Shown here in pieces: positions 15,303-18,768 of a DNA stretch of 64,000 bases (position 1 is the first letter of the stretch; the number at the start of each line of letters is the position of its first letter). Source of the DNA: Nitrosopumilus sp. b1 (GTDB taxonomy: Archaea > Thermoproteota > Nitrososphaeria > Nitrososphaerales > Nitrosopumilaceae); the NCBI RefSeq assembly GCF_014078545.1, contig NZ_MU078707.1, positions 1 to 64,000 of the forward strand, read 5' to 3'. A model generated the notes under the pieces. The model was not told where the DNA came from. It searched no databases and saw nothing but the letters and a program-made list of their open reading frames with translations. Position numbers and translations under genes: made by a program.

Positions 15303-15839
15303 ATGAAGAGTGAGCTAATAGAGAATCGAGTAATTATTTGGGATATTGAAAATTCTAAAAAACTTTTTTCAAGTGGATACTATGGAAAGCCAATTGGAAT
15401 GCCAAAACCAAAACTTGAGGAAATCAATGTTCCATTGATTTTGGATCTCATAGAAAGCTATTATTTGATGCAAAATGGAAAAATTACAGTTTATCAATTA
15501 AAAAAGAAAATTTCAGATGAGCAAATGTTAAAGATTTGTAGAAAAGAATATCATGATTTTGATAAAAAATTTACAGTGTACAAAAATTTTAGAGATAATG
15601 GCTACATTGTCAACCCTGGGATAAAATTTGGATGTGATTTTGCAGTATATGAGAAAGGTCCAGGAATTGATCATGCACCGTATTTAGTTCAAGTGTATAA
15701 CAAAAAAGACATCATCACTAGTACAGGAGTAGTACTTGCTGGAAGATTAGCAACAACAGTAAGAAAGCAATTCATCCTTGCAATTCCACACGGAAAAGAT
15801 AATGTTAGTTTTCTTGCGCTAGATTGGTGGCGAGCCTAA
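15303..15839 (+). CDS. endA: tRNA-intron (splicing) endonuclease EndA
   Basis: 178 residues, the length of the basic archaeal subunit. The C-terminal nuclease domain carries the catalytic triad Tyr116 (GCDFAVY), His124 (GIDHAPYLV) and Lys155 (TTVRKQF). The N-terminal domain is about residues 1-85. The enzyme cuts bulge-helix-bulge RNA structures in pre-tRNA, pre-rRNA and some mRNAs, two nucleotides into each 3-nt bulge. Whether it acts as a homotetramer or with a second subunit cannot be told here. It is the likely partner of the predicted intron in carB at 51541-51561. Confidence 0.95.
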   Translation: MKSELIENRVIIWDIENSKKLFSSGYYGKPIGMPKPKLEEINVPLILDLIESYYLMQNGKITVYQLKKKISDEQMLKICRKEYHDFDKKFTVYKNFRDNGYIVNPGIKFGCDFAVYEKGPGIDHAPYLVQVYNKKDIITSTGVVLAGRLATTVRKQFILAIPHGKDNVSFLALDWWRA

Positions 15840-16210
15840 AGTGATTTGATGTGGCCAGCTATTTTATCATAGATTTCAAACATTTCTTTTGAAATATCGA
15901 AATCCAAGTGGTTCTTCCATTTGTTATGAATTCTAATTCCAGTCTCAGTTGGCTCTACAAATATTGATGCATCCTTGATTGATTGTTTTGCAATGGACTC
16001 GTTTAATGCAGAATCAGAGTTTAGTGCTTCTGCGAGTTTTCCGCCATTCCAGGATACGGATACAACTTTTTTGTCTCCAAAGTGTCCTGAGGTCTTGAGA
16101 ACAGTTTTTGCAACAAAGGCAGAAGTATCATTTCCAGCATTTTTTCGTACAATAAAGTGTGCTTGAAATCTATCAAGTGCGCCCCAAGGTAGTGGATTTG
16201 GATCTTGCAT
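15836..16210 (-). CDS. Conserved hypothetical protein
   Basis: 124 soluble residues with Trp-rich patches (VVSVSWNGGKLAEAL, GIRIHNKWKNHLDFDI). No catalytic motif was recognised. It overlaps the end of endA by 4 bases (convergent) and follows another small unknown gene by 2 nt on the same strand, so the two are probably one operon. Confidence 0.7.
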   Translation of the reverse strand: MQDPNPLPWGALDRFQAHFIVRKNAGNDTSAFVAKTVLKTSGHFGDKKVVSVSWNGGKLAEALNSDSALNESIAKQSIKDASIFVEPTETGIRIHNKWKNHLDFDISKEMFEIYDKIAGHIKSL

Positions 16211-16212
16211 TT

Positions 16213-16449
16213 CTATCCCTTTTGAATAATTTGTATTACGTCAATGTTGGAGTTTTTTACTTCCAAGCTTCCCTTGTTTGTAACCATTCGTGGGGTTTGA
16301 GAAAAGTACCTACTGTAATAATCATCATTTTCAACATCACCGGATGCTATTTCATTGGATTTTGAATCAATACCGATTTCTTTTAACATGTCTGAGAATT
16401 TTTCTGGCCATGTTTTTGAAACAAATGTATCTGGTTCAGAATCATGCAT
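16213..16449 (-). CDS. Small hypothetical protein
   Basis: 78 residues from the ATG at 16449 (MHDSEPDTFV). A TTTATT box at 16473-16478 on the minus strand lies about 26 nt upstream, supporting a leaderless start there rather than at 16473. The protein is acidic, with no recognised domain. The gene is divergent from the double-SDR gene. Confidence 0.6.
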   Translation of the reverse strand: MHDSEPDTFVSKTWPEKFSDMLKEIGIDSKSNEIASGDVENDDYYSRYFSQTPRMVTNKGSLEVKNSNIDVIQIIQKG

Positions 16450-16540
16450 GTCATTAATCAAACAAGCCCACAAATAAAGATATCAAGGAATCAAACCGAT
16501 CAATCCAATTAAATATCACAAAAGATTGGAACTGTTGTTC

Positions 16541-18316
16541 ATGCTAAAATTTCAAGGAAAGGTTGCTCTAATCACCGGAAGTGGAACGGGTATTGGTAAA
16601 GCCATTGCAAAAAAGTTTGTAGAAAATGGTGCAAGTGTGATAATTTTAGGTAGAAGACGAGATCCCTTAGAAGAAGCTGCAAAAGAGCTAAACGACATCA
16701 TCTCCAAAGTACAAAGCAATGGAAAGGTGACAATTTTTGATGGAGTCGATGTCAGTGATGAAGATGGAATTAATGGAATGTTTGATGAATTACAAAAAGC
16801 CAATGTCAATGTAGATGTAGTAGTAAATAATGCAGGAGTTTCAGGTCCGGTCACATGTTTTGCAAATTCTTCATTAAAGGACTTTAGAAGCACTGTAGAT
16901 ATTCATCTAACTGGAACATTTTGGACTTCTGTGCAAGCATTACGAGTAATGAAAAAGGGAGCAAAGATAATTACAATTTCGACATTCTTCACAGAAGAAA
17001 GACCCTTAGAACAAAGACCATACAGATTCAGAGATCCATATACAGCATCTCAAGGTGCAAAGAATAGATTAGCAGAAGCAATGTCATGGGAATTAACAGA
17101 GAAAGGAATCATATCGATTGCAACAAATCCAGGTCCAGTACATTCAGATAGAATTTACAAGACAGTTTATCCAAAGGCAGCTGCTGAATTTTTGCGCGTT
17201 AGTGGATTTGAAGACTTGACACCAGTTGAGGTTGAGTCAGTAAATAATGAATTGTTTGATTTACTTGGGGAAGATGATGCAACTGTAAAAGCAGGAATAG
17301 CAAAAGCCGCAGAAAATCTCGTAAAACGAAGAGGAGGAGATGTAGAAAAATCATCAAAAACTATAGCTGCGTTATTATCAAAGATTCAAACCATAGCAGA
17401 AAAAGTTCAAACAAACACATCCAAAATGATTGCAGATGAGCAATTTCTATCACAAGAACAAGTAGCAGAAACTGTTTTGAAATTATCCGAAGATAAATTG
17501 GCTGCCATCTTAAATGGCAAAGTCATTCCAGGGGACAGGGTGTTTTATCCAGTAAGGGCACATATTGCAAACAAGACACCAGGGGTGCATCAACCAGATT
17601 GGAAAGGAAAAACATTTGTCTTTACAATTAATGCTACTGAAAAAAGTGATGCAGATAGAGCAGAAGCACTAGCAGCACATGTTGAAAAGAATGGCGGAAA
17701 AGCAGTATGCATCATTTCAAATGATACGCAAAAAGAATTACAAGATTCTATTTCTGGAAAATTCCATTCACATGTTAGTGATTTAAAAAATCCAGAGGAG
17801 ATCAAAAGATGGCTAGAAGCTGCAAAGAATATGGGCGAGATAGCAGCAGTTGTACATTTGACGGGAAATATTCCAAATGTTTCAAAGTTCGTAGAGTTAT
17901 CAAGAAAAGATTGGGACAATCTGGTTGACAAATTTATTAACACTCCTGCAACTGTTATTCAGCAAGCTCTAGAGCATTTTGTTCCAGGAGGAGGAAAGGA
18001 TCCAAGATTGTTCCAAGGTAAAAAAGGAACGATTGTCACTATTGGGCCAGACCTTCCCGTAGGAAGAAAGATTTCAGGTGAAGATAGAGCAAGAGTTGAA
18101 GTGTTCAGAGGAGCATTAAGACCATTTACAACAACCATTAATCAAGAATTAAGTGATGTCTTAAAATCAAATGTGAGGTCATTTTTGGTGTTACCAGGCA
18201 CAGTTGATGGCGGAGAGCCAAATGTAGAGAATATCTCACAAGCGTTGAACTTTTTTGTTTCTGAATCTGCTGCGACATCATCAGAAGTAACCTTCTGTGT
18301 AGACGAATCAAGATAG
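16541..18316 (+). CDS. Double-SDR oxidoreductase resembling a half of Chloroflexus-type malonyl-CoA reductase
   Basis: 591 residues from the ATG at 16541. SDR domain 1 has GSGTGIG (13-19), a basic LGRRR after strand 2 (NADPH preference), NNAG (96-99), ISTFF (Ser147) and Tyr167. After NPGPVHSDRIY there is a long helical insert (about 205-310) and then a second, degenerate SDR domain (about 355-590) lacking the glycine motif. This layout, the 20-residue Ser-Tyr gap and the PGPV.sDR segment recall each half of bacterial malonyl-CoA reductase. The usual YxxxK lysine is Gln171; Lys174 gives a FabI-like Y-X6-K. Substrate is inferred only. A MaoC-like gene follows after 2 nt. Confidence 0.75.
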   Translation: MLKFQGKVALITGSGTGIGKAIAKKFVENGASVIILGRRRDPLEEAAKELNDIISKVQSNGKVTIFDGVDVSDEDGINGMFDELQKANVNVDVVVNNAGVSGPVTCFANSSLKDFRSTVDIHLTGTFWTSVQALRVMKKGAKIITISTFFTEERPLEQRPYRFRDPYTASQGAKNRLAEAMSWELTEKGIISIATNPGPVHSDRIYKTVYPKAAAEFLRVSGFEDLTPVEVESVNNELFDLLGEDDATVKAGIAKAAENLVKRRGGDVEKSSKTIAALLSKIQTIAEKVQTNTSKMIADEQFLSQEQVAETVLKLSEDKLAAILNGKVIPGDRVFYPVRAHIANKTPGVHQPDWKGKTFVFTINATEKSDADRAEALAAHVEKNGGKAVCIISNDTQKELQDSISGKFHSHVSDLKNPEEIKRWLEAAKNMGEIAAVVHLTGNIPNVSKFVELSRKDWDNLVDKFINTPATVIQQALEHFVPGGGKDPRLFQGKKGTIVTIGPDLPVGRKISGEDRARVEVFRGALRPFTTTINQELSDVLKSNVRSFLVLPGTVDGGEPNVENISQALNFFVSESAATSSEVTFCVDESR

Positions 18317-18318
18317 GA

Positions 18319-18768
18319 ATGAAAAAATTCTCAGAGATGAGAATAGGTGATGAGTTTTTTTCCACGTGTAGTATATCAGAAAAGGAGTTAGAAGACTATC
18401 TTAATTTCTCGAGAGTGAAAAACGCATTACTTGATTCCGGTAAAGAAAATCACATGGTGTCTGGAAGAGCAATACTATCAAGAATGGAAGGAGAATTCAC
18501 TAGATTAAGCCAGATTTATGGAAACCATATGTTATTCATTGGGACTGATGGAGATACTGATTGGGAAAGCAGAAACACGCGGTTTGTAAAACCACTTAGA
18601 GTAGATGAAGTTCTACAAATAAAATTTACAATTTCAGATAAGAAAGACATTGATGAAGAAAATGGAAAAATTGCAGTAGATTTTGAAGGAACTAAGCAAA
18701 ATGGAGAAGTAGTAGTTATTTCCAAAAAAAATCTCTATAGACTAAAAAAAGATCCAGAGTCAAATTAA
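18319..18768 (+). CDS. MaoC-like hot-dog fold protein
   Basis: 149 residues with MaoC/FAS1-dehydratase style segments: MRIGDEFFSTCSISEKELEDYLNFS at the start, then VSGRAILSRMEGEFTRL and FVKPLRVDEVLQIKFTISDKK. The hydratase 2 motif D-x-N-P-x-H is not present in its normal form. It may therefore be a non-catalytic or altered hot-dog protein. It starts 2 nt after the double-SDR stop codon, so the two are surely co-expressed and may act on the same acyl-CoA. Confidence 0.75.
   Translation: MKKFSEMRIGDEFFSTCSISEKELEDYLNFSRVKNALLDSGKENHMVSGRAILSRMEGEFTRLSQIYGNHMLFIGTDGDTDWESRNTRFVKPLRVDEVLQIKFTISDKKDIDEENGKIAVDFEGTKQNGEVVVISKKNLYRLKKDPESN

Follow-up and report, generated by a model that had tools for sequence, protein, structure and literature searches.

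A gene in the 64,000-nucleotide stretch of DNA analysed here (the window) encodes a double-SDR protein that is the best candidate, and a well-supported one, for the malonyl-CoA reductase still missing from the CO2-fixation cycle of ammonia-oxidizing archaea (AOA). The protein is probably a divergent relative of a single half of bacterial malonyl-CoA reductase (MCR), most likely catalysing the NADPH-dependent conversion of malonyl-CoA to malonic semialdehyde in the HP/HB cycle of Thaumarchaeota. The basis is the predicted fold, motif conservation, phylogeny, distribution and the absence of candidates from two known enzyme families; from these we infer the substrate, the cofactor and every catalytic step. 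Given that it has neither the catalytic Lys nor a four-domain fusion, the protein stands as a sister to the MCR halves and not as a strict member of MCR. The invariant Gln171, His122, the weak sequence link, an insert with no clear counterpart of MCR-C Arg799 and the lack of linkage to HP/HB genes in the compared flanks count against a simple MCR assignment. The preliminary description of this DNA had proposed a reductase acting on malonyl-CoA or acryloyl-CoA, an interpretation that is partly supported by our results.

Its premise that malonyl-CoA reduction had no assigned gene in AOA was correct: papers from 2018 and 2020 state that no gene had been identified for malonyl-CoA reductase in N. 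maritimus (PMC6038301, PMC6964070), and a marker-gene resource from 2026 lists a second variant of the cycle with a separate malonic semialdehyde reductase marker and none for malonyl-CoA reductase (PMC12894919). According to a 2021 paper, Thaumarchaeota carry out these steps with enzymes that share no homology with their crenarchaeal counterparts (PMC7845616). No published assignment of an AOA malonyl-CoA reductase was found in the open-access literature covered by the search.

Gene and domain architecture

The source organism is an ammonia-oxidizing archaeon; its genome encodes a single archaeal AmoA, and its close relatives are AmoA-bearing genomes of family f1. The open reading frame (ORF) begins with the ATG at 16541, and its stop codon ends at 18316; a longer form starting from a TTG at 16526 is possible, and the homologue alignment begins at the ATG (Table 1). 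Conservation at 44–98% identity across four AOA families excludes a chance ORF. Pfam adh_short covers residues 7–203 (1e-42), and none of the 25 NCBIfam models listed scored above its cut-off. An AlphaFold model built with 33 homologues (pLDDT, 89.1; pTM, 0.90) begins with a Rossmann domain, followed by a helical insert and then by another, Rossmann-like domain (approximately residues 355–591) in which neither a TGxxxGxG nor a YxxxK motif was found. Pfam and the model thus bear out the previously described plan, in which a long insert separates a catalytic SDR domain from a degenerate one.

Table 1. Features of the candidate gene and its product, with positions in the window (aa, residues of the protein)
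Feature	Position	Strand	Evidence
CDS, 591 aa, double-SDR protein (candidate malonyl-CoA reductase)	16541..18316	+	ORF, homologues, AlphaFold model, Foldseek
SDR domain 1, catalytic Rossmann (aa 1-208; model ~1-205)	16541..17164	+	Pfam adh_short; model
Nucleotide-binding TGSGTGIG (aa 12-19)	16574..16597	+	T12, G13, G15-G19 invariant in homologue alignment
R38-R39, predicted NADPH 2'-phosphate site	16652..16657	+	Invariant; R38 aligns with RfxMCR Arg41 and Arg616 (roles: PMC10470521)
Active-site block, aa 145-176 (T148, Y161, R164, Y167, Q171 for SDR Lys, K174)	16973..17068	+	Invariant, 37/37
GPVHSDRIY (aa 198-206), including S202 and R204	17132..17158	+	Invariant in homologues
Insert, mostly helical (aa 207-354; model ~207-350), located where MCR-C has its extra domain	17159..17602	+	Model secondary structure
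SDR domain 2 (aa 355-591), degenerate, predicted not nucleotide-binding	17603..18313	+	Model; Foldseek alignments to MCR halves

Relationship to bacterial MCR

A Foldseek search with the model against 350,542 PDB chains returned bacterial MCR for all 25 best matches (best, 4.8e-26), including C halves, N halves and full-length structures from Chloroflexus, Roseiflexus and another bacterial MCR; this was the comparison by structure prediction that had been suggested. The double-SDR enzyme MFE-2 followed at 2e-17 and single SDRs from about 1e-14. Because the alignments to MCR span 634–706 columns, both domains and their arrangement match those of MCR, and the global rmsd of 5.6–9.3 angstrom indicates that domain placement is similar, not identical. 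Bacterial bifunctional MCR (Chloroflexus and Roseiflexus; PDB 8hjw, 8hi4; KEGG K14468) shares with the AOA protein the order of catalytic SDR, insert and degenerate SDR, the Thr/Ser, Y-x2-R-x2-Y and GP[VI]x[SG]xR[IL] elements, the predicted NADPH site and a common clade. It differs in being a four-SDR fusion of about 1,220 residues, whereas the AOA protein corresponds to one half (two SDR domains, 591 residues), shows about 20% identity in structural alignment, has Lys at +7 and carries an insert without clear extra-domain residues.

In sequence searches against all PDB chains (phmmer and profiles), full-length MCR ranked first through two matching domains, and hhalign of the AOA profile gave 99.7% with the MCR-N profile and 99.6% with the MCR-C profile. 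The MCR-C profile ranked the double-SDR protein first, narrowly, in the source genome and not first in four other AOA; reciprocally, the best match of the AOA profile was MCR in four of five MCR genomes. These reciprocal searches were only partly supportive of kinship; pairwise or profile scores alone do not clearly single out MCR, and the link is weak when judged on sequence alone. The case for kinship rests on architecture, fold, motif and tree taken together. In a tree that included 50 further SDRs (from bacteria, AOA and archaea other than AOA), a single clade (98/92) united the AOA proteins with the two MCR halves, and it stood when either half was removed (95–96 SH-aLRT); an earlier tree with 22 other SDRs also recovered it (99/99). 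The two trees disagree on whether the AOA protein lies nearer the N or the C half, one placing it as sister to MCR-N (97/77). A plasmid search for bacterial MCR gave no match. Fold, motif and tree agree with the earlier likening of the protein to the halves of Chloroflexus-type MCR.

Active site

Structures and mutants of RfxMCR define functional residues in MCR-N (T165, Y172, R175, Y178, K182, S213 and R215) and MCR-C (S731, Y743, R746, Y749, K753 and R785); the SDR Lys is essential in both halves, and mutation of residues that hold malonate or malonic semialdehyde lowered activity (PMC10470521). In our alignment, T148/Y161/R164/Y167/Q171 correspond to T165/Y172/R175/Y178/K182 of MCR-N and S731/Y743/R746/Y749/K753 of MCR-C, and S202/R204 to S213/R215 of MCR-N, with R204 also matching R785 of MCR-C. 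T148, Y161, R164, Y167, S202 and R204 are invariant among the 37 homologues, so that all of the residues that hold malonate or the semialdehyde in MCR are invariant in AOA except the Lys. The Ser/Thr-Tyr-Lys triad is therefore incomplete: T148 and Y167 are kept, and the site at which each of the 22 comparison SDRs has Lys is Gln171 in 37/37 homologues. His122 occupies the SDR Asn position. The YTASQ sequence with a Lys three residues on, as first described, is real, as Lys174 is likewise invariant (37/37); MCR-C has Gln at that position, and Lys and Gln are thus swapped, one helical turn apart.

The motif pair Y-x2-R-x2-Y-x3-[KQ] and GP[VI]x[SG]xR[IL], framed after the alignment had been viewed but with Tyr and Arg positions that are those reported for MCR, occurs in 37/37 AOA proteins, 19/20 MCR-N and 23/24 MCR-C sequences. 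Both motifs together were found in 0/74 other SDRs, mostly from AOA, their relatives or MCR-bearing genomes. By sequence, the insert could not be clearly matched to the extra domain of MCR, and it has no clear equivalent of MCR-C Arg799, the nearby invariant R219 aligning inexactly. A Ser-to-Tyr spacing of 20, noted previously as common to both MCR halves, holds for S147–Y167, but the aligned catalytic residue is T148, 19 residues from Y167; the corresponding spacing is 18 in MCR-C (S731–Y749) and 13 in MCR-N (T165–Y178), so of the two halves only MCR-C resembles the AOA protein in its long spacing.

Distribution and genomic context

Each AOA lineage that was sampled has the candidate gene. 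Of the 201 genomes taken from the order, 107 carry AmoA together with this gene, 2 carry AmoA only, 3 the gene only and 89 neither. The gene is therefore present in 107/109 AmoA-bearing genomes (one of the two exceptions is 67% complete) and absent from 89/92 AmoA-negative genomes, the other three all belonging to the AOA family f8; presence in AOA and absence from relatives had been proposed as a check, and this is the pattern observed. In a sample of 398 genomes from the phylum, all matches lie in AOA families, with none in the 325 other genomes of that sample. A 4-hydroxybutyryl-CoA dehydratase-type gene is more widespread (148/201 genomes, including relatives without the candidate), so the candidate tracks AOA and not the 4HB half-pathway. 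Many non-AOA genomes of families f4 and f9–f12 have a protein of this type (HpaB_N) and neither AmoA nor the candidate. As ammonia oxidation and autotrophy coincide in this sample, the distribution fits both equally. One homologue (G013:C6:27978-29752) is broken by an apparent frameshift near its C terminus, giving two overlapping matches.

In the flanks that we compared with the window, the candidate showed no linkage to genes of the HP/HB cycle. A MaoC-like hot-dog ORF (18319-18768, +) begins 3 bases downstream and has no Pfam match and a weak NCBIfam match. It adjoins the candidate only in part of family f1 and is missing there in many AOA, on which basis we rejected it as an obligate, MFE-2-like partner. 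Two small conserved ORFs of no known family (15836-16210 and 16213-16473, both -) are divergent from the candidate and stay beside it in many f1 AOA and in f3.

Other enzyme families for the missing steps

The malonyl-CoA reductase of Sulfolobales is an ASADH paralogue. This malonyl-CoA/succinyl-CoA reductase (K15017) performs the same step in the crenarchaeal HP/HB cycle, but its fold is unrelated to that of the AOA candidate, an SDR; no second ASADH was found over the cut-off in AOA, which have one copy, the same as in their non-AOA relatives, and we rejected an ASADH-paralogue MCR in AOA. Aldehyde dehydrogenases of the CoA-acylating type were rejected as an explanation for AOA in general: PF00171 proteins are absent from several near-complete AOA, among them G002 and G020 (each a single contig), although AmoA, 4-hydroxybutyryl-CoA dehydratase and the candidate gene are kept there. 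With no second ASADH, and no aldehyde dehydrogenase in some AOA, both families fail as general explanations. A PF00171 match (E up to 1e-15) is missing in ten AOA genomes (G002, G005, G007, G011, G012, G017, G020, G026, G029 and G036), and their succinyl-CoA reductase should therefore also come from another family. A semialdehyde-reductase-type Fe-ADH is a separate gene in most AOA (f1 and f8). G037 and G053 (f2) and G038 (f3) have the candidate and no strong match to a malonic-semialdehyde-reductase-type Fe-ADH, so another enzyme, or the candidate itself, would do the semialdehyde step there.

Alternative functions

Loss of the catalytic Lys, the MaoC-like ORF downstream, the rank of MFE-2 as the next structural match after MCR and a distribution that fits ammonia oxidation as well as autotrophy could each be read as signs of an AOA-specific SDR with another role (in lipid metabolism, or in an MFE-2-like metabolism of 3-hydroxyacyl-CoA alongside the MaoC-like neighbour) or of a pseudoenzyme. 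We regard this as unlikely. The neighbour is not beside the gene in many AOA, an invariant active-site block ill suits a decaying enzyme, and MFE-2 lies far below MCR in the fold search. Peroxisomal MFE-2, a (3R)-hydroxyacyl-CoA dehydrogenase (PDB 2et6), resembles the AOA protein in its two tandem SDR domains, but the fold match is much weaker (rmsd, 18.5), and both of its SDR domains are catalytic with a standard YxxxK, which is found at the catalytic position of neither domain of the AOA protein. MFE-2 further combines its SDR domains with hydratase 2. It is quite improbable that the candidate is wholly or chiefly a succinyl-CoA reductase: the structural and motif matches are all to malonyl-CoA enzymes, and the gene is missing in non-AOA relatives that keep 4-hydroxybutyryl-CoA dehydratase, even though the chemistry is the same, a carboxylate-bearing CoA thioester suits the carboxylate-holding pair, AOA without any aldehyde dehydrogenase need a non-ALDH enzyme for this step and the gene is unassigned in AOA (PMC6038301).

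An MCR-N-like malonic semialdehyde reductase, catalysing the alcohol dehydrogenase step, would account for T148 and S202-x-R204-I, which are common to both proteins, for the sister position to MCR-N in one tree and for the lack of Fe-ADH in f2 and one f3 AOA genome. We give it little probability, as the protein lacks the Lys on which MCR-N depends, the two genes occur together in most AOA and a malonic semialdehyde reductase has already been reported (Nmar_1110; PMC4510362). The acryloyl-CoA reductase of the cycle, also unassigned (PMC6038301), is a very improbable role. Acryloyl-CoA was disfavoured as a substrate since it has no carboxylate for Y161/R164, the pair that holds one in MCR, and no enoyl reductase was among the best 60 PDB sequence matches or the 50 structures listed. 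SDR enoyl reductases do exist (FabI), and the altered Lys position, seven residues after a Tyr as in FabI-type enoyl-ACP reductases, had suggested such a likeness. The resemblance is out of register: the FabI Lys occupies the SDR Lys site, which Gln171 and not Lys174 fills here, and Lys174 lies 24 residues from the Gly of the next Pro-Gly, compared with 27 for the Lys of FabI and FabG, as counted on their known sequences. The spacing from Y167 to Pro-Gly equals that of FabG, counted in the same way, and the likeness to FabI is therefore coincidental. We rejected a FabI-like enoyl reductase on grounds of this register and of substrate.

Proposed mechanism and implications

For the preferred role as a malonyl-CoA reductase, NADPH would bind domain 1 (R38, D70), and the free carboxylate of malonyl-CoA would be held by Y161, R164 and Y167, with the thioester carbonyl positioned by T148 and Y167. 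Hydride attack would then expel the CoA thiolate, which Y161–R164 may help to protonate, as proposed for RfxMCR-C. Gln171, in place of the catalytic Lys, probably only holds the nicotinamide ribose, and the insert and domain 2 may close the pocket over CoA. The semialdehyde would subsequently be reduced by the separate Fe-type alcohol dehydrogenase. A bolder and doubtful proposal is that malonyl-CoA and succinyl-CoA are both substrates of the lysine-less site (His122-Thr148-Tyr167-Gln171 plus Tyr161-Arg164) and that bifunctional bacterial MCR originated by duplication of an ancestor resembling the single-half form; if so, one enzyme would supply two of the steps still missing from carbon fixation in AOA.

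The analysis singles out one gene, present across AOA, as a well-supported candidate and names particular residues in its product. If confirmed as a malonyl-CoA reductase, it would offer a genetic marker of the HP/HB cycle in Thaumarchaeota, represent an unusual SDR active site and indicate that AOA reduce malonyl-CoA by a route related to the bacterial enzyme and not to that of Sulfolobales.
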